From contig JAKSVF010000007.1 in NCBI GenBank assembly GCA_024408235.1, forward strand, positions 1 to 58,207: a DNA stretch of 58,207 bases. Direction: 5' to 3'. This document shows, piece after piece, positions 26,780-49,715 of this stretch (positions are counted from its first letter, which is position 1; each line of letters starts with the position of its first letter). Origin of the DNA: Bacilli bacterium. Its GTDB lineage: Bacteria > Bacillota_I > Bacilli_A > RFN20 > CAG-826. The position numbers and the translations under genes are program-made. Under the pieces are notes generated by a model, which was not told the DNA's origin, searched no databases, and saw only the letters and a list, made by a program, of their open reading frames with translations.

Positions 26780-27082
26780 TTGGCATTTTGATAAACGTGT
26801 GTAATATGGCCACATAGCATTGAAGGGAAATAGTACCTTTCGAGTAAGACTTGAGCGAGCCGCTGATGGTGAGAGGGCGGTGTCTGAGGCGATTGGGAAC
26901 GCGTCCTGGAGCTGATTCCTGAAATTAGTAGGGAACTCCGTGTTCGCACGTTATAGCGACTTTGGGTTACTAACTGACCCGGAAAGGCAATTGCCGTGAG
27001 GCTGTTGCAAACTAAGGTGGCACCACGTTATTAAAGTAACGTCCTTAGGCTAAGTAGCTTAGGGACGTTTTGTTTTATAGAA
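26780..27082 (+). promoter_or_regulatory. T-box riboswitch leader, probably arginine-specific
   Basis: Promoter TTGGCA (26780-26785), 16 bases, TAATAT (26802-26807). The leader has AGTA elements at 26832 and 26843, a GAGCGAGCCGCTGATGGTGA stem I apex, and GAA-CGC-G at 26897-26903 where the specifier is expected: CGC, Arg. The T-box AGGTGGCACCACG is at 27015-27027; its TGGC would pair with a tRNA end bearing discriminator G. A terminator (AACGTCC/GGACGTT plus T-run) lies at 27038-27080. Uncharged tRNA-Arg would favour readthrough into the transporter and argGH. The specifier call is inference. Confidence 0.85.
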
Positions 27083-32117: not shown

Positions 32118-32203
32118 ATCAAAAAACCGGCCCTGCAGCGCTGCAAGGCCGGCCCTTCCCGCTCCCACTTGCCATGAGGGAAGGATAGGTCTATACTACG
32201 ACT

Positions 32204-32246
32204 GAGCGTGGGAACTCAGAGGTAGGATTCGTCCTACTTCTTTTTG
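32204..32246 (+). ncRNA. Candidate antisense antitoxin RNA, copy 1
   Basis: Promoter TTGCCA (32169-32174), exact 17-base spacer, TATACT (32192-32197). The RNA would start near 32204, form a CTGAG/CTCAG hairpin and end at GTAGGA-TTCG-TCCTAC plus T-run (32222-32246). It is complementary to the last codons and 3' end of the peptide mRNA, the overlap used by txpA/RatA-like type I systems. Confidence 0.6.
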
Positions 32247-32305
32247 TTCCCTAGCTCAGCTAGTATCAGGAGCACGATGATCAGGATGATTACCGCATCC
32301 GACAT
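32234..32305 (-). CDS. Small hydrophobic peptide, type I toxin-like, copy 1
   Basis: 23 residues: start MSDAVIILIIV, end LAELGNKKK. One membrane helix with an acidic start and a Lys tail, the shape of holin-like type I toxins. AAGGAGG is 7 bases before ATG 32305. The stop codon sits inside the stem of the antisense RNA terminator. Identical in the second copy. Too short for a confident family match; assignment rests on architecture. Confidence 0.65.
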   Translation of the reverse strand: MSDAVIILIIVLLILAELGNKKK

Positions 32306-32434
32306 CACGCCTCCTCCTTTCCTTGCCCATGAGGCCTGGAGCGGCTGTTTGGGAGCATTTCATGAACATGCCCTCCACTAATAAATAGAGGAGTTTTCCT
32401 GATTTTTTACCAAAAACTTTTCAATCTTATAAGA

Positions 32435-32463: not shown

Positions 32464-34044
32464 TTATTTTCCGGAGTTTCCGTAGTTTGATAGAACCCTA
32501 GCAGAGGGATCGTTTACATTACAGCCATCCCATCTCTTGTTTGGCATCCAGAAATCGACAATCATTTCTGCTTGACCTGGATAGTATTTCTCAAATATTT
32601 CTCTATATAAAAGCGACTCTTTCGTGAATGGCGTTGCGTGTTTATATGCAACTCTTTTCGCTTCGTATTCTTCATCCGAATAACATGTTCCAGCGAACCC
32701 CTTTAAGTGGTCGACCATAGAATGGCCTACTGCATCAGAGAACGCCGCCTTATCTCTCATAAGTATTTCTTTTGGAAGAATGTCATCAGCCTCAAACGCA
32801 TGCCTTAACAAATATTTGCCGATGCCATATGAGTTCATCTTTAACTTAGGGTCTATTGCCATTACATATTTAACGAACTCTAAATCGCCAAACGGGACTC
32901 TAGCTTCTAAAGAGTTGACTGAGATGCAGCGATCTGCGCGCAAAACATCATACATGTGTATCTCACGAATACGTTTAATTGCCTCCATCTGGAATTCTTT
33001 AGGATTTGGAGCGAAGTCTGTGTACTTGTATCCGAATAACTCATCCGATATTTCTCCTGTTAAAATCACTCTGACATCGCTTTGCTCATGGATGGCTTTG
33101 CATATTAGATACATGCCCATTGAAGCTCGGATAGTCGTGATGTCATACGTAGCCAATGTCTTGATCACAAAATCCAGTGACTCTAAAACGTCTTCTTTGG
33201 TCATGATTATTTCATGATGATCAGAACCTATAAAGTCTGCGACCTTCTTAGCATACTTTAAGTCAATGGCATCAGTAGACATGCCAATCGCATAAGTCTT
33301 GATTGGCTTATTTAACAACTTTTGTGAAATAGCGCATACCAAAGAAGAATCTAATCCTCCGGACAATAAGAAACCTAATGGAGCGTCAGCATCTAATCTC
33401 TTTTCAACGCCTTTTATTAGCAAATCGTGGATATTTTTGCATGTTTTTTCAAGATTATCCGTATTGTATTCGCTCACTTCCGTCACATCTTTATAACAAT
33501 GGAACTCACCATCTTTGTAATAGCGTCCAGGAGGGAATGGAAGTATCTTTTCAACAAGCGGTATCAGGTTCTTTGGCTCAGAGGCAAATGCGATATTGCC
33601 CCATTTGTCATATCCATAATATAGGGGCCTAATTCCGATCGGATCTCTAGCGGCTATAAATGATTTTAATGAAGCGTCATAGATGATTAAGGCATATTCA
33701 GCATCAAGCATCTTGAACATCTCTACCCCGTATTCCTCATATAAAGGGAGAAGGATTTCGCAATCGGACTCACTTACAAAACTGTATCCCTTTGAGATTA
33801 GTCCTTCTTTCAGTTTTCTAAAACCGTATATTTCTCCATTACAGATAAGGTAATTATTGTTCATATTAAAAGGCTGCATACCCGAAGGCGATAAACCCAT
33901 GATTGATAAGCGGTGGAAACCTAAATAACCATTCTCGATTTCAACGATTCTAGACATATCAGGTCCACGAGAAATTGTCTCATCGAACCCTTTCTGGAAC
34001 TCATCCAATGAAAGAGGCCCAATGTAACCCATAATTGAACACAT
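32464..34044 (-). CDS. asnB: Asparagine synthase (glutamine-hydrolysing)
   Basis: 526 residues. Begins MCSIMGYIG, so Cys2 becomes the N-terminal nucleophile of the glutaminase domain; FHRLSIMG and NGEIYGFR follow. The C-terminal synthetase domain has the PP-loop LLSGGLDSSLV. It converts aspartate to asparagine using glutamine nitrogen and ATP, acting as E. coli AsnB. AAAGGAG precedes the start. It follows the Amt-PII gene on the same strand after 57 bases that include a strong hairpin, so partial cotranscription is possible. It fits the nitrogen island. Confidence 0.93.
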   Translation of the reverse strand: MCSIMGYIGPLSLDEFQKGFDETISRGPDMSRIVEIENGYLGFHRLSIMGLSPSGMQPFNMNNNYLICNGEIYGFRKLKEGLISKGYSFVSESDCEILLPLYEEYGVEMFKMLDAEYALIIYDASLKSFIAARDPIGIRPLYYGYDKWGNIAFASEPKNLIPLVEKILPFPPGRYYKDGEFHCYKDVTEVSEYNTDNLEKTCKNIHDLLIKGVEKRLDADAPLGFLLSGGLDSSLVCAISQKLLNKPIKTYAIGMSTDAIDLKYAKKVADFIGSDHHEIIMTKEDVLESLDFVIKTLATYDITTIRASMGMYLICKAIHEQSDVRVILTGEISDELFGYKYTDFAPNPKEFQMEAIKRIREIHMYDVLRADRCISVNSLEARVPFGDLEFVKYVMAIDPKLKMNSYGIGKYLLRHAFEADDILPKEILMRDKAAFSDAVGHSMVDHLKGFAGTCYSDEEYEAKRVAYKHATPFTKESLLYREIFEKYYPGQAEMIVDFWMPNKRWDGCNVNDPSARVLSNYGNSGK

Positions 34045-34101: not shown

Positions 34102-35889
34102 TTAAACCGTTTCGTCCGTCAAGGCTAGCACGCCAGTCTCTCCGGTCCTTACTTTTATGACATCGAGACAGCGGTAAATGAATATCTTTCCATCACCTAC
34201 GTGCCCTGTGTATAAAGCTTTTCTAGCCGTATCAACAAGTAGCGATACTGGAACTGTAGATACGACGACATCAACCTGAACTTTTGGCAATAATGTTGGC
34301 TCAACCTTAACGCCACGATAGTACTCTGGAGCACCCTTCTGGATTCCGCATCCCATAACATGGGATACAGTCATACCTGTAATGCCGATTTCCATTAATG
34401 AAGACTTGAGAGTCTCTAGCATTCTTTCCTTACAGATAATCTCAACTTTCGTGATGACGACATCACCTTCCTTGATCGTGTCGGTTGGTTCAACGTTCTT
34501 GACTTCAATCGCCTCTGCAATAGGTGTTTCTCCAGTAACTGCAACAGCATCTCCATAATCAAGATGTTCAACCGCCGGAAGGAAGTCAGCATATGCTGAT
34601 GGAAGACCATGCTCTGTGATGTCGAGACCCTTGATCTCTTCTTCTCTGGATGCTCTTAATCCGATTGTTTTCTTTAAGACCCAGAAAACGCCGAACATTG
34701 TTACGCCTGCCCAAACTAAGATTGCGATTTCGCCAAGGAACTGGACTCCTAAAACCTTTAAGCCGTCAACAAATGAAGTTCCGTGAATTAATGCATATAT
34801 TGGACCGTCAACAGCAAATACGGCTGATCCATCTTCTGCGACGCCGACAATAGCGGTGGATGTTGAGAATAAGCCTGCTGCGATAGTGCCCCAGATGCCG
34901 TTTGCCAAATGAACGCCACACGCACCAACAGGGTCATCAATATGTAATTTAAGATCTAAGAACTCAACAACTACAACGACCAATATGCCAGCGACAGCAC
35001 CGATGATTATTGCGCCAAAGCAATCGACATTTGAGCAGCCAGCTGTAATTGCAACTAAGCCAGCTAGACCTGCGTTTAAGCACATAGATACATCAGGTTT
35101 GCCATTCTTGAACCAGGTGTAAATGAGTGTTGCGACTGTTGCAACGGCTGGAGCGATTGTCGTAGTTGCAAATATCATTCCGAGCTGGGTTAAATTCTTA
35201 GCTGTAGCTCCATTGAAGCCATACCATCCAAACCAAAGGATGAAACAACCGAGTGCGCCTAATGTGATTGAGTGGCCCTGGATTGCGTTTACTTTAGTGA
35301 CCTTGCCGGATGAATCCCTTGTGTATTTGCCAAGACGTGCACCTTCCATGATGGCGCCGATTAAAGCGACAATGCCTCCGACTGAGTGAATTGCTGCAGA
35401 TCCTGCGAAATCGATAAAGCCCATCTGTGCGAGCCAACCTCCGCCCCAGACCCAATGAGCTTCAATTGGATAAACAACAAAGCTGATAACGAAGGAATAA
35501 ATGCAATAAGAAAGGAATTTTGTTCTTTCGGCCATAGCTCCTGAAACGATCGTTGCTGCTGTTGCGCAGAAGACGAGGTTGAATACGAAGTTTGACCAGT
35601 CAAAATTCTTGAAATTCGTAAAGATGTCAAGAGTTGGTATACCGACGAATCCCCCTAATGCGTCTTCGCCTAACATAAGGCCTGCACCAAGGAAAATGAA
35701 TGCAACAGTGCCAATGCAGAAGTCCATGAGGTTCTTCATGATGATGTTGCCTGCGTTTTTCGCTCTAGTGAATCCTGTTTCGACCATCGCGAATCCCGCT
35801 TGCATGAAGAAGACTAATGCGGCACCTATCAGGAACCAGATCGCGAACGCTGTTTCGGAAACTAGAGACGTAATTTCTAGATTTGTCAT
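34102..35889 (-). CDS. amt: Ammonium transporter fused to a P-II regulator domain
   Basis: 595 residues from ATG 35889 (AAAGGAG upstream). Residues about 1-430 form the eleven-helix Amt channel (FFMQAGFAMVETGFTRAKN; AHWVWGGGWL; GGIVALIGA). After a linker the last ~115 residues are a GlnB/GlnK domain: KVEIICKERMLETLKSSL, T-loop EYYRGVKVE and the C-terminal signature TGHVGDGKIFIY. Free GlnK normally plugs Amt under nitrogen excess; fusion ties gate and pore together. The T-loop Tyr is present. Its leader has an attenuator that fits ANTAR control. Confidence 0.92.
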   Translation of the reverse strand: MTNLEITSLVSETAFAIWFLIGAALVFFMQAGFAMVETGFTRAKNAGNIIMKNLMDFCIGTVAFIFLGAGLMLGEDALGGFVGIPTLDIFTNFKNFDWSNFVFNLVFCATAATIVSGAMAERTKFLSYCIYSFVISFVVYPIEAHWVWGGGWLAQMGFIDFAGSAAIHSVGGIVALIGAIMEGARLGKYTRDSSGKVTKVNAIQGHSITLGALGCFILWFGWYGFNGATAKNLTQLGMIFATTTIAPAVATVATLIYTWFKNGKPDVSMCLNAGLAGLVAITAGCSNVDCFGAIIIGAVAGILVVVVVEFLDLKLHIDDPVGACGVHLANGIWGTIAAGLFSTSTAIVGVAEDGSAVFAVDGPIYALIHGTSFVDGLKVLGVQFLGEIAILVWAGVTMFGVFWVLKKTIGLRASREEEIKGLDITEHGLPSAYADFLPAVEHLDYGDAVAVTGETPIAEAIEVKNVEPTDTIKEGDVVITKVEIICKERMLETLKSSLMEIGITGMTVSHVMGCGIQKGAPEYYRGVKVEPTLLPKVQVDVVVSTVPVSLLVDTARKALYTGHVGDGKIFIYRCLDVIKVRTGETGVLALTDETV

Positions 35890-35999
35890 AATGCTCTCCT
35901 TTAAATAAAAAAGAGGCAACGAGACCGGCTGCTTATTTACAACCAGGCCTCATTGCCTTTCCGATGCCAAAAGTCTAGGGCTCAAACCGTTAATGTCAA
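35890..35999 (-). promoter_or_regulatory. amt promoter and ANTAR-type antitermination leader
   Basis: Minus-strand promoter TTGACA (plus 35994-35999), 16 bases, TAGACT (35972-35977). The RNA can form AGGC-[AAUGAG]-GCCU (plus 35945-35958), a hexaloop with A at position 1 and G at 4. The same bases, GGCAAUGAGGCC, also pair over 12 bp with GGUCUCGUUGCC to make a terminator followed by a T-run (35903-35957). The two folds exclude each other. An upstream partner hairpin is not clear. Confidence 0.7.
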
Positions 36000-36099
36000 T
36001 TGCAATATCAATAAAAACGCTTTCAAAAACAACGCAAATAGAAGCATTATTTAATCTATAAATAATAAAAAACGCAAAGATGTAAGATTTTCATTTACA

Positions 36100-36196
36100 T
36101 ATTATGTAGTAATGATATTATGCCGTGGAACAAAGGCGTTCACCTATTTGATCTATGTAATCATCAGATACTAGTGGGATGCCTTTTTATTTTTTG
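36100..36196 (+). promoter_or_regulatory. glnA-operon leader with ANTAR-type hexaloop and terminator
   Basis: TATTAT at 36100-36105 is a likely -10. GAAC-[AAAGGC]-GUUC at 36128-36141 is a hairpin with an A-N-N-G-N-N hexaloop. The loop plus its 3' arm, AAAGGCGUUC (36132-36141), pairs over 10 bp with GGAUGCCUUU (36177-36186), forming a terminator before a T-run. This mirrors the amt leader. No glutamine riboswitch core was found. The rest of 36000-36100 is AT-rich without a gene. Confidence 0.7.
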
Positions 36197-36210
36197 TAGG
36201 AGGTTGGCAT

Positions 36211-37278
36211 ATGAGTTACAGCAAAGAGGATGTAATCCAGTATATCGAGGAAGAGGACGTTAAGTTTATTCGCCTCGCTTTTTGCGATTTATTTGGAAAA
36301 GAGAAAAACATCTCAATAATGCCAAACATGCTTGAGGAAGTTTTTGAAAAAGGTCTTGAGATTGATGCTTCTTGCCTATGCGGTTATGAGGATTATTCAA
36401 AAATAGTATTGCACCCGGATCCATCAACAATATCCGTTCTTGCTTGGAGACCATCTCAGGGAAGAGTCGTGAGAATGTTCTCAAACATCACCGATGTAGA
36501 AGGAAAAACAATTGCAACGTCCCCTAGAGATATCCTCCAGAAAGTCATATCCAAATATCCAGATACTGCATCAAGCATAAAAATTAAAACAGAGTTTGAG
36601 TTTTACCTCTTTAAGCTAGACGAAGAGGGGTATGAAACAACAATCCCATATGACGATGCCGGATTTATGGATGTAGCGCCTTTAGATAAAGGCGAAAACA
36701 TCAGACGAGAGGTTTGCCTATATTTAAGCGCGATGGATATCGAGACCTCCGGCTCTCATCATTCATGTGGGCCTGGCCAGAATAGAATCACCCTATCAAG
36801 CGCCTCCCCACTAGTCGCTGCCGAGCGCTCAATCACATTCGAAGGGGTTGTCAAAAACGTCTCAAGCAAGAATGGATTATCCGCAAACTTTGAGCATTAT
36901 CCAATAGAAGGGGGACCAGTATCTAAAAACACGATCACAATCACCGCTGACCCATCTTTGATAGATGAGTATTACGCCGCTTTAAAGAAAAACCTAGATG
37001 AAGTTTATCTCTTCTTGAATAACACGCCATATCTTTATCCGGATTATGACGAGGACAAGAATGTGGCCAAATCAGCATCTGAAATTAAAGTAACAAGAAT
37101 CTCATCAAATGCTAATTTCTATTTTGTAATTGCCGCAATTATCGGGGCAATTGCTGCAAAAACCACATCAAATAAAGCTAAAGCAACGTCTTTAGAGAAA
37201 GCGAAAAAGATCACGAGCAAATCCTCGATTGTCAAAGAATTGTTTCCAAATGAGGTAATCGCCGAATACACAAAATAA
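36211..37278 (+). CDS. Short degenerate glutamine synthetase homologue
   Basis: 355 residues, against about 440 for GlnA. GS fold elements remain: IRLAFCDLFG, the E-x-E pair at 128-130 (TEFEF) and SSNANFYFVIAA near 298-309, equivalent to the SSANPYLAFAA region. Catalytic motifs are damaged: the HHEVAPGQNEI-type block reads SHHSCGPGQNRIT (182-194), replacing two metal-ligand Glu by Ser and Arg, and the NGSGMH nucleotide motif is not recognisable. It is probably not a working synthetase. Cotranscribed with the ANTAR regulator and gltBD, so a sensing role is plausible but unproven. Confidence 0.75.
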   Translation: MSYSKEDVIQYIEEEDVKFIRLAFCDLFGKEKNISIMPNMLEEVFEKGLEIDASCLCGYEDYSKIVLHPDPSTISVLAWRPSQGRVVRMFSNITDVEGKTIATSPRDILQKVISKYPDTASSIKIKTEFEFYLFKLDEEGYETTIPYDDAGFMDVAPLDKGENIRREVCLYLSAMDIETSGSHHSCGPGQNRITLSSASPLVAAERSITFEGVVKNVSSKNGLSANFEHYPIEGGPVSKNTITITADPSLIDEYYAALKKNLDEVYLFLNNTPYLYPDYDEDKNVAKSASEIKVTRISSNANFYFVIAAIIGAIAAKTTSNKAKATSLEKAKKITSKSSIVKELFPNEVIAEYTK

Positions 37279-37313: not shown

Positions 37314-37934
37314 ATGCAGCTAAAAGAACACGCCTACAAGATATTGGTCGTATCTAGTAGCGATCGCATGGCGGCCGCGCTAGCAAAGATCATCGTTAGC
37401 ACGAATCTTTCTAACCCCGTTGTTGCATCCTCCATTCCTCAGGCGAAACGTTTGGTGGTGGAAAGGACATTCGATTTCATGATCATATCATCGCCTGTTG
37501 GCCATGATAATCCAATCGAGTTTGCTATAGACACTCACGAGGAATGCGGAACGGGAATCATCATCCTGACTAGAGATAGCGAGTATGAGGAAACATATGA
37601 CAAGACGCATGAATACGGAATTCTAACTCTATCAAAACCAACTCCGACCGAGTTATTCATTCAAGCGTTGCGGATGCTCACATCATCTAAAACCAAAATG
37701 GAATTATCCAAGCTTAAATCTCCATCAAGCATGACATTGAAGGATAAGATGGAAGAGATACGAATTACGAATGAAGCAAAGCTTCTTTTGATGAAATACG
37801 AAAAACTGAGCGAAGGGGACGCTCATAAACAAATACTCAAAACAGCGATGGATTACCGCCTTTCAAAAAGTGAGGTCGCCCATCAAATAATAGAAAAATA
37901 TTCCACGAGAAGAGGGGGTAACGCAAATGAATAG
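37314..37934 (+). CDS. ANTAR-domain RNA-binding antitermination regulator
   Basis: 206 residues; AGGAGG before ATG 37314. The N-terminal part looks like a receiver domain without a clear phospho-acceptor pattern (KILVVSSSDRMAAALAKII ... IIILTRDS). The C-terminus is an ANTAR helical bundle: NEAKLLLMKYEKLSEGDAHK followed by ILKTAMDYRLSKSEVAHQI. ANTAR proteins bind paired hexaloop hairpins and prevent termination; NitR-like ones control glutamine and glutamate synthesis in clostridia. Overlaps gltB by 8 bases. Candidate targets lie in the glnA and amt leaders of this island. Confidence 0.85.
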   Translation: MQLKEHAYKILVVSSSDRMAAALAKIIVSTNLSNPVVASSIPQAKRLVVERTFDFMIISSPVGHDNPIEFAIDTHEECGTGIIILTRDSEYEETYDKTHEYGILTLSKPTPTELFIQALRMLTSSKTKMELSKLKSPSSMTLKDKMEEIRITNEAKLLLMKYEKLSEGDAHKQILKTAMDYRLSKSEVAHQIIEKYSTRRGGNANE

Positions 37935-40900
37935 AGAAGAAAGAGTAGGCTTATATGATCCTAGCTATGAACATGATGCATGTGGTATCGGAGCTATTGC
38001 CCAAATCAAAGGCATAAGAACTCATCAGACCATTAAAGACGCGCTTAACATATTAATCCATCTCGAGCATCGTGGTGGAACTGGCGCAGAAGATAATTCA
38101 GGCGATGGCGCGGGAATCTTAGTTCAGATACCGGATAAATTCTTTAGAAGTCAGATTCTTGGTTTTGAACTTCCGAAAGAAGGAGACTATGCGGTCGGCC
38201 AGTTATTCTTGTCGCCAAACGAGGCGATGAGAGAAAAAGAAATCGCGCTCATTAACTCTTCATTTGTGGAAGAAGGAATAACGATCCTTGGCTATAGAAA
38301 TGTCCCAGTTGACACATATGGTATCGGAACAACCGCTCTTAAGGCGATGCCTTACATGGTTCAGGTGTTCTTGAAGAGACCGGATGATGTAGAAGCGGGG
38401 CTTGATTTTGAAAGAAAGCTCTATGTTGCTAGAAAAGTCATTGAGACAAAGACACTTAAGACGAGTTCCAAATTGTATTTCTGCTCTTTATCATCAAGGA
38501 CGATCATCTATAAGGGTATGCTCGTTTCAACTCAAGTCCGTGATTTCTATCTCGATTTGAAAAACACAAAATTCGAGACGGCAATCGCTTTGGTTCACTC
38601 GAGATTCTCCACAAACACCTTTCCATCTTGGGAGAAGGCACACCCGTATCGTTTCCTATGCCACAATGGTGAAATCAACACCATCAGAGGCAACACCAAC
38701 TCGGTCAGAGCTAGAGAAGGCTTATTTAAATCGGATTTATTTGGCAAGGATTTAGACAAGGTTATTCCTATTATCCCTAAGGAATCCTCGGACTCTGCTA
38801 TGTTCGATAATTTCTTTGAATTCAACTACCTTAACGGCAGAAGCCTTGAGGAAACAGTCATGATGACGATCCCGGAACCATGGGAAAAAGACTCTGGAAT
38901 GGATTCAAGACTAAAGGCATTTTATGAGTTTAACTCAACCTTCCAGGAACCATGGGATGGACCTGCATCCATCATTTTCTCAGATGGTATCAAAGTCGGC
39001 GCGTCTTTAGATAGAAACGGCTTAAGACCATCTCGTTATTACATCACAAAGGATGATTATCTTATTCTCTTCTCAGAAACCGGATCACTTCCAATTGACG
39101 AGAGCAACGTCTTAGAAAAGAGAAGACTTGAACCTGGCAAAATCCTTTTGGTCGACACCAAAGAAGGAAGAATCATCTCCAACGATGAGATAAAATCTCA
39201 TTACTCATCTCTTAAACCATATGAGAAGTGGACAAAGAACATTATCCATCTCGAGGATTTAGAAGATGAGAAAGTTGTTAAGCCTGAGTATGATGTTCAT
39301 CGTCTCCAGCACCAGAATAACTACACATATGACGAATTGATGGAAGGAATTCTTCCTCTTGCCGAAAACCATGCTGAGAAAGCGGTGGCCATGGGCAATG
39401 ACACCCCACTTGCCGTGTTAACGAAGAAAGAGTTCAACCTTTTCCAATTCTTTAAACAAAGATTTGCCCAAGTCACAAACCCTCCGATCGACTCAATCCG
39501 CGAAGAGATTGTCATGTCCAGTTTTGTCTATCTAGGAAAAGAAGGCAACCTTTTGAATCCAACACAGGAAAACACAAAGAGAGTTAGAATCGACAATCCT
39601 CTTCTCAGCAAAGCTGAATTCGCGAAGATCAAGAACTTATACGCCAGCAAAAAGATTAAGACTGAGATTATCTCTATCTGCTATGACTATAAGAAAGAGT
39701 CAATGACAGAGGCATTGGATAGAATATTCAAGGAATGCGATATAAAGATTAATGCAGGCGCATCAATTTTAGTTTTATCTGATAGAAATCAGAATGGAAT
39801 GGCTATCCCATCATTATTGGTGTCAAGCGCTCTTCATCAGCATTTAACTAGAAGACACATGAGAACCCATGTCTCAATCGTCTTAGAAGCGGCAGAGCCT
39901 CGTGAGATTCATCATTACGCCGCCCTCATCGGCTTCGGCGTTAACGCAATCTGCCCATATCTCGTTTATGAGACAATCGAGGAATATCAGAAGAGAGGCT
40001 ATATAAAGACTCCATTGAAGACAGCTCTTAAGAACTATGCAGAAGGTGCACTTAAGGCGATTTGCAAAATCATCTCCAAGATGGGCATCTCTACTATCCA
40101 GTCCTATTTAGGCGCGCAGATCTTTGAATGTATCGGTCTTTCAGATGAAGTAATCGCTAAATATTTCACCAACACCCCAAACTCAATCGGCGGTATTGGA
40201 ATCGAAGAAATCGAAGCAAATTACGTAAAAATCTATGAAAAAGCCCAGCAAAGAGGTGATGACACACTAGATTCAATCGGTCTACACGGATATAGAAACA
40301 AAGAAAATGAGCATATATACGATCCGCTCGCGATAATGTACCTTCAGTCCGCTTGTCAGACAGGCAATTACAAAGAGTACAAGGAATTTACATCGAGAAT
40401 TGACTCTAAAGTAATCAACATCAGAGACACTTTGAAATTCGACTTCCAAAATCCAATCGCGATTGAAGAAGTGGAACCGGTCGAATTGATTGTTGAGAGA
40501 TTTAAAACGGGTGCCATGTCATATGGTTCAATCTCAAAAGAAGCTCACGAATGTATGGCGATTGCCATGAACAGGCTCCACGCTAAATCAAATACAGGCG
40601 AAGGTGGTGAAGAACGTGAGAGATTCACGCTCGATGCAAACGGTGATAATCGCTCATCCGCCATTAAGCAAGTCGCTTCAGGCCGATTTGGCGTCACAAT
40701 CGAGTATTTAACGAACGCAAAGGAAATTCAGATTAAGATGGCCCAAGGAGCTAAGCCTGGCGAAGGCGGTCAGTTGCCTGGTCAGAAAGTTTTCCCTTGG
40801 ATTGCTAAGGCTAGACATTCAACTCCTGGTGTCTCGCTAATTTCGCCACCTCCTCATCACGACATTTATTCAATCGAAGACTTGGCACAACTAATATTTG

Positions 40901-42402
40901 ATTTGAAGAACGCTAATAGAGAAGCACGCATCTCCGTTAAACTAGTCGCAGAAGCTGGAGTTGGCACAATCGCAGCGGGTGTAGTTAAGACAGGCGCAAA
41001 CACAATCCTCATCTCGGGATATGATGGCGGAACTGGCGCTTCTCCTAGAACGAGCATCTATAACGCCGGCATCCCTTGGGAAATCGGTTTAGCAGAGACC
41101 CATCAGACATTGGTCATGAATGGTTTAAGAGATAGAGTCCGTTTGGAGACAGATGGAAAACTTTTAACCGGAAAAGACTTAGCGGTAGCTATCCTTTTGG
41201 GCGCGGAAGAGTTTGGATTTGCAACCGGACCGCTTATTGCAATGGGCTGCATCATGATGAGAGTGTGTAACCTCAACACTTGCCCAGTCGGCGTTGCAAC
41301 CCAAGACGAAAGACTTAGAGCGAGATTCAAAGGTAAGCCTGAATATGTCATGAACTTCATGCGCTTCATCGCAGAAGAATTAAGAGAATATATGGCTCTT
41401 CTCGGATTCAGAACCGTCGATGAAATGGTAGGCCACACTGAACTCTTATCACTCAAGAAAGAATTCCGCGGCAGAATCAATCCAAAGAGAATTCTCTTCA
41501 ACGCCAAGGTTGTTAATAAGGACTCAACATTCAAAGCGTATAAGATAAATCCACTCGATAACACCATTGATTACCGTGTTCTCCTGCCTTTATCTAAAGC
41601 CGCAATCAACGGAACAATGGGTGAAATCATCGATATTGAGATATCTAACGTCAATAGATCATTTGGAACCCTTTTATCTAATGAAATAACGAAGATTTAT
41701 GGAGAAAATGGCCTAAAAGATGACTCAATAACCATTAATGCAGTCGGAAATGCCGGCAACTCATTTGGCGCATTCTTGGCAAAAGGCGTTTCAATATCAG
41801 TTACTGGAGACGCTAACGATTATCTTGGCAAAGGGTTGTCAGGAGGAAAGATTGCAGTCAAGAAATCTCCAGCCGCAACTTTTGATTCAAGCGAGAATAT
41901 CATCTGCGGAAACGTTGCTTTATATGGAGCCACATCCGGCGAATGCTATTTAGACGGAATCGCTGGCGAAAGATTTGGTGTCCGTAACTCTGGCGCTAAG
42001 ATTGTATCCCTTGGCTGTGGTCAACATGGCCTTGAATATATGACTGGTGGCGTTGCCCTTATCTTAGGAAAGGTTGGAAGAAACTTTGCTGCCGGTATGT
42101 CTGGCGGTGTCGCCTATGTATATGGCCTTGAGAATAAGGCTATGGTCAACACTGAACTCGCCAAGCTCCTGCCATTAACCAACGAGGACGTTGAGATAAT
42201 CAAAGAACTCATGAGTGAGCATATAACAAGAACATCATCTAAGAGGGTTGAAGAACTTCTTGAATCGTTTGATAAGAACGAGTACTTCAAAGTCTTGCCA
42301 AATGACTACGCAAGGATGGTTTCGCTTATTTCAAAGCACAGAGCAAATGGGGATTCCAATCCGGAACTAGCTGCTTTTGAAGAATTTATGGGAGGACATT
42401 AA
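37927..42402 (+). CDS. gltB: Glutamate synthase, large (alpha) subunit
   Basis: 1491 residues, full length. C19 (HDACGIGA) is the N-terminal nucleophile after an 18-residue propeptide. The glutaminase domain is followed by a central domain, the FMN domain with KPGEGGQLPGQKV, the 3Fe-4S Cys cluster (CNLNTCPVG) and the C-terminal beta-helix GXGXG repeats. It converts 2-oxoglutarate and glutamine to two glutamate, with electrons from GltD. GOGAT makes sense only with a real glutamine synthetase, which is not the degenerate homologue here, so one should exist elsewhere in the genome. Confidence 0.95.
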   Translation: MNREERVGLYDPSYEHDACGIGAIAQIKGIRTHQTIKDALNILIHLEHRGGTGAEDNSGDGAGILVQIPDKFFRSQILGFELPKEGDYAVGQLFLSPNEAMREKEIALINSSFVEEGITILGYRNVPVDTYGIGTTALKAMPYMVQVFLKRPDDVEAGLDFERKLYVARKVIETKTLKTSSKLYFCSLSSRTIIYKGMLVSTQVRDFYLDLKNTKFETAIALVHSRFSTNTFPSWEKAHPYRFLCHNGEINTIRGNTNSVRAREGLFKSDLFGKDLDKVIPIIPKESSDSAMFDNFFEFNYLNGRSLEETVMMTIPEPWEKDSGMDSRLKAFYEFNSTFQEPWDGPASIIFSDGIKVGASLDRNGLRPSRYYITKDDYLILFSETGSLPIDESNVLEKRRLEPGKILLVDTKEGRIISNDEIKSHYSSLKPYEKWTKNIIHLEDLEDEKVVKPEYDVHRLQHQNNYTYDELMEGILPLAENHAEKAVAMGNDTPLAVLTKKEFNLFQFFKQRFAQVTNPPIDSIREEIVMSSFVYLGKEGNLLNPTQENTKRVRIDNPLLSKAEFAKIKNLYASKKIKTEIISICYDYKKESMTEALDRIFKECDIKINAGASILVLSDRNQNGMAIPSLLVSSALHQHLTRRHMRTHVSIVLEAAEPREIHHYAALIGFGVNAICPYLVYETIEEYQKRGYIKTPLKTALKNYAEGALKAICKIISKMGISTIQSYLGAQIFECIGLSDEVIAKYFTNTPNSIGGIGIEEIEANYVKIYEKAQQRGDDTLDSIGLHGYRNKENEHIYDPLAIMYLQSACQTGNYKEYKEFTSRIDSKVINIRDTLKFDFQNPIAIEEVEPVELIVERFKTGAMSYGSISKEAHECMAIAMNRLHAKSNTGEGGEERERFTLDANGDNRSSAIKQVASGRFGVTIEYLTNAKEIQIKMAQGAKPGEGGQLPGQKVFPWIAKARHSTPGVSLISPPPHHDIYSIEDLAQLIFDLKNANREARISVKLVAEAGVGTIAAGVVKTGANTILISGYDGGTGASPRTSIYNAGIPWEIGLAETHQTLVMNGLRDRVRLETDGKLLTGKDLAVAILLGAEEFGFATGPLIAMGCIMMRVCNLNTCPVGVATQDERLRARFKGKPEYVMNFMRFIAEELREYMALLGFRTVDEMVGHTELLSLKKEFRGRINPKRILFNAKVVNKDSTFKAYKINPLDNTIDYRVLLPLSKAAINGTMGEIIDIEISNVNRSFGTLLSNEITKIYGENGLKDDSITINAVGNAGNSFGAFLAKGVSISVTGDANDYLGKGLSGGKIAVKKSPAATFDSSENIICGNVALYGATSGECYLDGIAGERFGVRNSGAKIVSLGCGQHGLEYMTGGVALILGKVGRNFAAGMSGGVAYVYGLENKAMVNTELAKLLPLTNEDVEIIKELMSEHITRTSSKRVEELLESFDKNEYFKVLPNDYARMVSLISKHRANGDSNPELAAFEEFMGGH

Positions 42403-42403
42403 T

Positions 42404-43822
42404 ATGGGAAAGAATACAGGATTCTTAGATTATCCTCGTCTCAATAAGAACGAGTTATCAGTCGAAGAGAGAATTAAGAACTTCAACGATTTCCACACTC
42501 CATATGACGAGAAGACTCAGAAAGAACAGGCTGCTAGATGCATGAACTGCGGTGTTCCTTTTTGCCAGAGTGCGATGAAGGTCAACAACAGAAACGTTGG
42601 CTGTCCTTTATCAAACCTCATCCCAGAATGGAATCACCTCATTTATATGGGTTTATATGAGGAGGCTTATAAAAGACTTGCGAAAACCGCGCCATTCCCT
42701 GAATTTACAGGCAATGTATGCCCAGCTTTATGCGAAGCGTGTTGCTCTTGCTCAATAAACGGCGATTCAGTTGGAGTTAAGGCTAATGAGCTTTTCGTAA
42801 TTGAAGAAGCCTTCAAGAATGGATGGATCAAGCCTAATAGAAACATCGTTAGGAACAAGATTAGGGTCGCAGTAGTGGGTTCTGGTCCTGCAGGGCTTTC
42901 TGCCGCTAAGCATTTAAACGACAGGGGTTACTATGTAACGGTATTTGAGAAGAATGACCGTTTCGGTGGACTCTTAACGTACGGCATCCCTAACATGAAA
43001 CTCGAGAAAAGCGTTGTAGAACGTCGAATCAAAATGTTGTCGGACGAAGGCATAGTGTTTGTAAACAACACAAAGATCGGCACCGACTATTCGATGGAAA
43101 ACCTGAGAAAGGATTATGATGAGATCATCTTTGCCTGCGGAACTTCAGAAGCTAGACGCTTGAAGGCAAAAGGAGTGGAGAAAGAAGGCGTGTATTACGC
43201 ACTCGACTTCTTAACAAAGACAACAAAGAATCTCCTTGACGAGAAGAAATTTGAAATCGATTGCAAAGATAAAGACGTCGTCATCCTCGGTGGTGGAGAT
43301 ACCGGAAATGACTGTGTTGGCACCGCAGTGAGAGAAGGGGCCAAGTCAATCACCCTTTTAGAAATCATGAAAGAACCTCCGGAAACAAACACTCTTCCAT
43401 GGCCAAACTATCCAAACGGAAAGAAGACTGATTATGGTGTATTTGAGGCTAATACTGTTTATGGGCATGACATCAGAAGATATGAGACAACAATCGATGA
43501 GGTTTTAGGAGACGATAAAGTCGACGGAGTTGTCATTAAAAAGGTGAATTTCCAAAATGGAAAATTCATTGATATCGAAGGCAGTAAGGAGACGATTCCA
43601 TGCGATATCTTGATTGTATCTATGGGATTTGTTGGAACTTCAATCGAAGACGCTCTGTCATATGGAATGGAATCGTTTATGAACCGCATCAAACTCGATG
43701 GTTTCAGATATGATGACAAAATCTCAGTGTGCGGTGACATGAAGTCCGGCCAAAGCCTGGTTGTTCTCGCGGAGAAAGATGGAATTGACTGCGCTGAATA
43801 CGTAATCTCTAAGCATAATTAA
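42404..43822 (+). CDS. gltD: Glutamate synthase, small (beta) subunit
   Basis: 472 residues from ATG 42404, preceded by GGAGG at 42391-42395. N-terminal Cys motifs for two 4Fe-4S clusters (CMNCGVPFCQ and CPALCEACC), then FAD binding (GSGPAGLSAA) and NAD(P)H binding (LGGGDTGNDCVGTA). It passes electrons from NADPH to GltB. One base separates it from the gltB stop. The 63 bases after it show no clear terminator, and repeat copy 2 follows. Confidence 0.95.
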   Translation: MGKNTGFLDYPRLNKNELSVEERIKNFNDFHTPYDEKTQKEQAARCMNCGVPFCQSAMKVNNRNVGCPLSNLIPEWNHLIYMGLYEEAYKRLAKTAPFPEFTGNVCPALCEACCSCSINGDSVGVKANELFVIEEAFKNGWIKPNRNIVRNKIRVAVVGSGPAGLSAAKHLNDRGYYVTVFEKNDRFGGLLTYGIPNMKLEKSVVERRIKMLSDEGIVFVNNTKIGTDYSMENLRKDYDEIIFACGTSEARRLKAKGVEKEGVYYALDFLTKTTKNLLDEKKFEIDCKDKDVVILGGGDTGNDCVGTAVREGAKSITLLEIMKEPPETNTLPWPNYPNGKKTDYGVFEANTVYGHDIRRYETTIDEVLGDDKVDGVVIKKVNFQNGKFIDIEGSKETIPCDILIVSMGFVGTSIEDALSYGMESFMNRIKLDGFRYDDKISVCGDMKSGQSLVVLAEKDGIDCAEYVISKHN

Positions 43823-43966
43823 CGCAATCGGTGCGAAGCGTTACAGACGCCGTTGTGCAAGATTATTGTGTCTAATGCGGATAATAAAACCGGCCCTGCA
43901 GCGCTGCAAGGCCGGCCCTTCCCGCTCCCACTTGCCATGAGGGAAGGATAGGTCTATACTACGACT

Positions 43967-44009
43967 GAGCGTGGGAACTCAGAGGTAGGATTCGTCCTAC
44001 TTCTTTTTG
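43967..44009 (+). ncRNA. Candidate antisense antitoxin RNA, copy 2
   Basis: Same sequence and promoter as copy 1: TTGCCA (43932-43937), 17 bases, TATACT (43955-43960), ending at the GTAGGA/TCCTAC hairpin. Because sequences match, either RNA could act on both peptide mRNAs. Confidence 0.6.
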
Positions 44010-44068
44010 TTCCCTAGCTCAGCTAGTATCAGGAGCACGATGATCAGGATGATTACCGCATCCGACAT
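43997..44068 (-). CDS. Small hydrophobic peptide, type I toxin-like, copy 2
   Basis: 23 residues identical to the product at 32234-32305, with the same AAGGAGG ribosome site. Single membrane helix and Lys tail. See copy 1 for the reasoning. Confidence 0.65.
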   Translation of the reverse strand: MSDAVIILIIVLLILAELGNKKK

Positions 44069-44241
44069 CACGCCTCCTCCTTTCCTTGCCCATGAGGCCT
44101 GGAGCGGCTGTTTGGGAGCATTTCATGAACATGCCCTCCACTAATAAATAGAGGAGTTTTCCTGATTTTTTACCAAAAACTTTTTATTTGCATAAGAAAA
44201 ACCCCAATTAGTGCACTAATGATAGCGAGGGTAATTTCACT

Positions 44242-49515: not shown

Positions 49516-49610
49516 GCAAAAAGTTGAATATGACACCATAAAAATGATACTTTTGGGTGATAAATCAACAATCATTTGACTTGTAATATTTGCCTAGAAA
49601 ACTATACTTT

Positions 49611-49715
49611 ACTCATCGGGAATGATGTCTCCCGGAGCAATGCTCGAACCGCCTTATTAAGCTGATGACGTCTATGCCTCTTTTTTGGCGTAGATTTCAT
49701 GGCTTTATTTTTTTG
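49611..49715 (+). promoter_or_regulatory. Fluoride riboswitch (crcB motif)
   Basis: Stem GGGA/TCCC (49618-49621, 49630-49633) closes loop ATGATGTC; its GATGTC pairs with GACGTC (49667-49672) to form the pseudoknot. AACCGCC and GCTGATGAC match the conserved crcB core. A small GAGC-AAT-GCTC hairpin is inserted. TCTATGCC (49671-49678) can instead pair with GGCGTAGA (49687-49694), a terminator-like switch. Promoter: TTGTAA (49581-49586), TATACT (49603-49608). Confidence 0.85.

Follow-up and report, generated by a model that had tools for sequence, protein, structure and literature searches.

Introduction

Glutamine synthetase (GS) is the signal partner of the regulators GlnR and TnrA in Bacillus and its relatives. 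Among ANTAR proteins, EutV acts by antitermination on dual-hexaloop leaders (PMC3369931, PMC8934654). One EutV dimer was found on one hexaloop in the RNA structure, and the need for two hexaloops was left open; the upstream hexaloop (P1) was required in vivo, and the minimal site was redefined as one hexaloop (PMC8934654). M172 of EutV is essential and Y164 stacks on G4 of the loop (PMC8934654). The same report asked how far single-hexaloop sites are used and called for bioinformatic work. Other ANTAR proteins depend on partners: AmiR has a pseudo-receiver and is controlled by a partner protein (PMC8934654), as is NasT (PMC3795266). Regulons in which ANTAR proteins act through dual hexaloops on amt, PII and glutamine and glutamate synthase genes have already been published (PMC3369931), and NitR of Clostridium acetobutylicum is reported to be an antiterminator of ammonia assimilation (PMC4676874). 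Since such nitrogen regulons and NitR have been described, this kind of switch is already known.

In this study, we analysed a 58,207-nt stretch of DNA from a Bacilli bacterium (the window), in which an initial annotation had proposed that amt and a glnA operon form an ANTAR regulon. We compared its leaders, regulator and neighbouring genes with those of related genomes.

Results

Two divergent nitrogen-assimilation operons

Two divergent nitrogen-assimilation operons flank the intergenic region 35890-36210 and contain the following genes:

32464..34044, minus strand: asnB, asparagine synthase
34102..35889, minus strand: amt fused to a PII domain
36211..37278, plus strand: 355-aa GS-like pseudoenzyme with a predicted GS fold, lacking active-site residues
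37314..37934, plus strand: ANTAR regulator, degenerate receiver without the phospho-acceptor Asp
37927..42402, plus strand: gltB, glutamate synthase large subunit
42404..43822, plus strand: gltD-like glutamate synthase small subunit

Judging from the 57-nt gap between them, asnB and amt are probably carried on one transcript. The initial annotation described a glnA operon with an ANTAR gene two genes downstream. By our analysis, the first gene of this operon encodes a degenerate, incomplete GS-like protein and the ANTAR gene lies directly behind it.

A 300-nt direct repeat (32118-32417 and 43881-44180, 99% identical) flanks the entire nitrogen cluster from asnB to gltD. Only two copies of the full repeat were found in the genome, and its final ~48 nt recurs about 18 times. 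The bracketing repeat and the patchy occurrence of the cluster suggest an island that was gained or can be lost. Each repeat copy encodes, on the minus strand (32234-32305 and 43997-44068), a 23-aa hydrophobic peptide, MSDAVIILIIVLLILAELGNKKK, behind GGAGGAGG; from its sequence it looks like the small peptide of a type I toxin-antitoxin system. Elsewhere in the window, two elements exceeded their Rfam cut-offs: a T-box leader at 26811-27049 (112 bits), which precedes an operon for an ABC amino-acid transporter, and a fluoride riboswitch at 49609-49681.

Hexaloop hairpins overlap the leader terminators

Both leaders contain a 4-bp hairpin with an ANNGNN loop in the 5' arm of an intrinsic terminator, in agreement with the initial annotation:

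36128..36141, plus strand: hexaloop hairpin GAAC-AAAGGC-GUUC of the GS-like leader, candidate ANTAR site
36132..36196, plus strand: intrinsic terminator of the GS-like leader, 10-bp base and U-run; the 5' arm consists of the hexaloop and the hairpin 3' arm
35945..35958, minus strand: hexaloop hairpin AGGC-AAUGAG-GCCU of the amt leader, candidate ANTAR site
35906..35958, minus strand: intrinsic terminator of amt, 13 bp including G-U, with U-run; the 5' arm is the hexaloop hairpin

Because hairpin and terminator have bases in common in both leaders, the two folds are mutually exclusive, as had been claimed. The terminator folds were placed at 36132-36186 in the GS-like leader and at 35958-35914 (minus strand) in the amt leader. 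RNA folding, which had been proposed as a check, was run on both leaders. The terminator was the minimum free energy fold in each, at -17.9 kcal/mol (z -2.6) in the GS-like leader and -31.3 kcal/mol (z -7.7) in the amt leader, and the hairpins alone were far weaker (-3.2 and -5.4 kcal/mol, respectively). A scan of the region with Rfam gave no leader family that reached its cut-off.

The hairpin is conserved and its stem covaries

Hairpins of this type are not rare over terminators. An ANNGNN hairpin was found in the 5' arm of 7 of the 51 terminators in the window, or 5/49 (about 10%) when the two leaders are excluded, and an ANNGNN-type hairpin was found in 3-6% of shuffled leaders. Hence the motif has little evidential value in one genome alone.

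A lack of hexaloop conservation in relatives had been set beforehand as a result that would refute the proposal; the test was run and did not refute it. As a contig search gave only four relatives, family searches across the class were used next. Five genomes supplied ten syntenic leaders, and in every one the hairpin lies over a terminator at the same place, with a stem of at least 3 bp and a hexaloop with A1 and G4, as in ANTAR target RNAs. The loops on one side read AAAGGC (four genomes) and AAGGGC (Anaeroplasma), and those on the other side AAUGAG, AACGAG, AAUGGG (two genomes) and AAUGAC. Across the ten leaders, positions 1 (A), 2 (A) and 4 (G) were invariant and positions 3, 5 and 6 varied.

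Leaders beyond the five syntenic genomes were picked by motif scan, so only the ten syntenic ones enter this unbiased count. An alignment of 17 hairpins, the ten together with seven from other families picked by the scan, had 95% of stem cells paired. Stem covariation was 0.717 compared to 0.323 after shuffling, none of 500 shuffles was as high, and the signal was separate from that of the terminator. The glnN leader of genome G188 was incomplete in the shuffle and upstream-hexaloop scan and present in two other leader sets. Although the evidence from one genome is weak, conservation in ten leaders and covariation of the stem confirm at the sequence level that the hairpin motif is real.

One hexaloop close to the predicted transcript start

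Consensus matching alone gave one predicted promoter for each operon, in a scan whose number of matches was not above chance:

36094..36121, plus strand: predicted promoter of the GS-like/ANTAR/gltBD operon, TTTACA-16-TATTAT, +1 near 36128
35972..35999, minus strand: predicted amt promoter, TTGACA-16-TAGACT, +1 near 35965

In the leaders of the genus and of Anaeroplasma, 6-13 nt separate the predicted -10 boxes from the stem that follows, so the predicted +1 is no more than about 10 nt away from the hairpin. For glnN of Anaeroplasma, the promoter matches the consensus perfectly and ends 11 nt before the stem. An alignment that included the -10 box lost the register of the box, and the plain hairpin was therefore modelled. 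Between the divergent promoters there is a cre-like site, TGAAAGCGTTTTTA (36012-36025), and similar sequences are present in the intergenic regions of relatives; these sites hint at catabolite control of the amt and GS-like operon genes.

No second hexaloop, either upstream (P1) or elsewhere in the leader, was conserved across the five genomes. This agrees with the initial annotation, in which the usual second hairpin was not found: none of the upstream hexaloops is conserved in the syntenic leaders. A classical pair of hexaloops, 36-54 nt apart, was found in the ANTAR-first leaders of ten genomes. A single hexaloop was found at the GS-first loci of the genus itself (8 leaders) and of Anaeroplasma (2), before GS, pyrG or glnN in G542, G533, G376, G332 and G552, and before ANTAR-pyrG in G482, where there is no GS gene nearby. 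Two loci were exceptions: G582 has one hexaloop before an ANTAR-first locus, and the upstream loop of a second G530 locus is off-consensus. Several ANTAR loci of the class had no leader match at all in the motif scan. One-hexaloop leaders in Bacilli thus mostly accompany GS-first loci, and ANTAR-first loci mostly have the classical two. The ANTAR proteins of the two kinds of locus separate on a quick tree (support 0.989). In the amt leader of G552 (L059, 3403 and 3338, minus strand), two complete hexaloop-terminators stand in tandem, 65 nt apart, in place of a single terminator with two hexaloops.

One ANTAR regulator, with a degenerate receiver, was found in the genome

The C-terminal ANTAR domain of the regulator matched PF03861 with 47.3 bits (cut-off 27.3), and the gene, located within the operon that it is proposed to regulate, was the only ANTAR gene found in the genome. 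Of the RNA-contact residues of EutV, the domain keeps K149, E160 and M172, has His at Y164 as AmiR does, and does not keep R142 and K147. The phospho-acceptor Asp of the receiver is replaced by Ser or Asn in all five proteins, those of the four genus members and Anaeroplasma. Since the receiver lacks this residue, we propose that the regulator is switched by a ligand-sensing partner, as in AmiC/AmiR and NasS/NasT.

In the order, the ANTAR gene was found in 4 of 279 genomes, all of one genus, and one Anaeroplasma contig was found separately. In all five, the GS-like gene lies directly before the ANTAR gene, and the divergent neighbour is amt or glnN-amt wherever the contig extends far enough; that of G189 is short.

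When the genome was searched with the hairpin model, the two leaders were matches 1 and 3, and the other readable matches lay inside open frames. With the hairpin model and a 14-mer pattern, no other intergenic site was found among the readable matches, a set that leaves aside a few matches near contig ends. As the remaining readable matches lie in open frames, the regulon appears to be small, as far as a 90.5% complete draft and a weak 16-position model with which 150 of 842 candidates were scored allow this to be judged.

A shortened GS copy precedes the ANTAR gene

The Pfam match of the GS-like protein ends after the first 40% of the catalytic domain. In place of the motif HHEVxPGQHEI the protein has HHSCGPGQNRI, and it lacks the His, Arg and C-tail motifs that lie further downstream in GS. 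By its sequence, with active-site residues lost and the fold shortened, the product is not a complete, working glutamine synthetase. The predicted model (pLDDT 82.6) had a TM score of 0.86 to P. polymyxa GS, and its closest folds include the GS-GlnR and GS-TnrA complexes; the protein is thus predicted to adopt a GS-like fold. The frame is open in five genomes with 43-68% identity and strictly conserved blocks, and the C-terminal part is shortened to differing lengths (305-357 aa). Only one other GS was found in the genome, an open frame of 697 aa whose length and match point to type III.

Of 37 genomes of the genus, 4 have both the ANTAR gene and the GS-like copy and 33 have neither; 10 of these 33 have a GlnA of ordinary length without ANTAR. 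The ANTAR gene is often beside a GS gene in other Bacilli families as well, in the orders GS-ANTAR-pyrG or ANTAR-GS. The GS-first copies in those families are shortened (395-422 aa) with the active site mostly kept, but it is lost in a 328-aa copy beside the ANTAR gene of G552 and lost in part in a 390-aa copy of G513. Gene order, co-occurrence, fold and analogy make the GS-like pseudoenzyme the best candidate sensor of a nitrogen or glutamine signal for the ANTAR protein, a role that we put forward as a hypothesis.

Proposed regulation and alternative explanations

The motif, its overlap with the terminators, the single ANTAR gene per genome, the restriction to nitrogen genes and the conservation all support the regulon proposed in the initial annotation. 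We consider it very probable from these sequence features that amt(-asnB) and GS-like-ANTAR-gltBD form one small ANTAR antitermination regulon, a single-hexaloop variant that is AmiR/NitR-like. The mechanism had been called the known one. The mutually exclusive folds fit this description, but EutV needs a recruitment hairpin upstream, which is missing here, so the agreement with the known mechanism is not complete.

We infer ANTAR binding and the direction of control as follows. By default, each nascent leader would fold into its strong terminator. Active ANTAR protein would capture the hexaloop hairpin at the extreme 5' end of the transcript, so that the trapped bases could not join the terminator and RNA polymerase would read through. 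The amt and GS-like operons would then rise together, and with the ANTAR gene inside the operon that it releases, positive feedback would result. The regulator is probably switched by a ligand-sensing partner, in the way that AmiC controls AmiR and NasS controls NasT, and the best candidate partner is the GS-like pseudoenzyme encoded just upstream. A recruitment hairpin may be dispensable here because a hairpin at the 5' end would leave the polymerase first and could be bound throughout transcription of the leader.

Plain attenuators, or control by another antiterminator or riboswitch with an incidental ANNGNN loop, could account for the leaders, given that about 10% of the other terminators in the window carry such a loop. 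We regard this as very unlikely, since variation in the loop is confined to positions 3, 5 and 6, with 1, 2 and 4 constant, the stem covaries separately from the terminator, and the Rfam scan of the region gave no family at or above its cut-off. It is also improbable, though somewhat less so, that the leaders are classical dual-hexaloop leaders whose first hexaloop was missed through a start further upstream or a loop deviating from ANNGNN. The GS-like leader does have a weak AAUGAU hexaloop 21 nt upstream, an off-consensus loop lies upstream at the related locus L063, and the promoters are predictions only. However, these upstream loops lie partly within the predicted promoters and lack conservation in the relatives, an in-register loop is absent from most of the ten syntenic leaders, the perfect-consensus glnN promoter of Anaeroplasma ends 11 nt before the stem, and true dual leaders of the class were readily recognised by the same scan. 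These results argue for leaders with a single hexaloop.

The sensor is the part of the proposal with the strongest competitor. The GS-like gene might be a decaying remnant without a role, with the ANTAR protein responding to something else, such as the PII domain that amt of the same cluster encodes; the lost catalytic residues and the varied C-terminal lengths point in this direction, and we see this as a serious possibility, if short of an even one. On the other hand, an open frame with conserved blocks and 43-68% identity in five genomes, a confidently predicted GS-like fold and an invariable position directly before the ANTAR gene in the group speak against a remnant, and a shortened, active-site-deficient copy likewise adjoins the ANTAR gene of G552.

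Discussion

In the literature searched, we found no description of a group of Bacilli with leaders of this form, in which a single hexaloop overlaps the terminator, nor of the pseudoenzyme neighbour. The leaders reported here are natural one-hexaloop cases, overlapping the terminator at the predicted 5' end, that occur beside two-hexaloop relatives of the same class, and they open the question of why two hexaloops are needed to direct tests. A degenerate glutamine synthetase paired with an ANTAR protein also suggests a way in which ammonium or glutamine status could be read without phosphorylation. Tentatively, and with rather less than even confidence, we suggest a Bacilli lineage in which ANTAR antitermination uses a single 5'-end hexaloop, the recruitment hairpin is dispensable and a dedicated GS pseudoenzyme binds the regulator as its sensor. 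If this is true, a target that emerges first from the polymerase needs no recruitment hairpin, and the GS pseudoenzyme is a new type of sensor for ANTAR proteins.

As in EutV and the eut leaders of Enterococcus faecalis (PMC3369931, PMC8934654), an A1/G4 hexaloop overlaps the 5' arm of the terminator, and K149, E160 and M172 of the ANTAR domain are common to both regulators. Unlike the eut system, these leaders have one hexaloop at the predicted 5' end of the transcript instead of two, and the receiver has no phospho-acceptor Asp, with no sensor kinase seen adjoining. At the level of regulator and genes, NitR of C. acetobutylicum (PMC4676874) is similar, an ANTAR-type regulator with links to glutamine synthetase and the assimilation of ammonium; at the present locus the partner gene is a degenerate GS. 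With AmiC-AmiR and NasS-NasT (PMC8934654, PMC3795266) the locus has in common a possible sensor gene adjacent to the regulator gene, and AmiR has both a pseudo-receiver and a His at the position of EutV Y164, as found here. AmiC and NasS are ligand-binding proteins of other families, whereas the GS-like sensor is only a candidate.

The candidate role of the GS-like protein resembles that of GS in the GS-GlnR and GS-TnrA pairs, in which it is the signal partner of the regulator. Those pairs join DNA-binding regulators to active enzymes, whereas the present locus would join an RNA-binding regulator to a pseudoenzyme.
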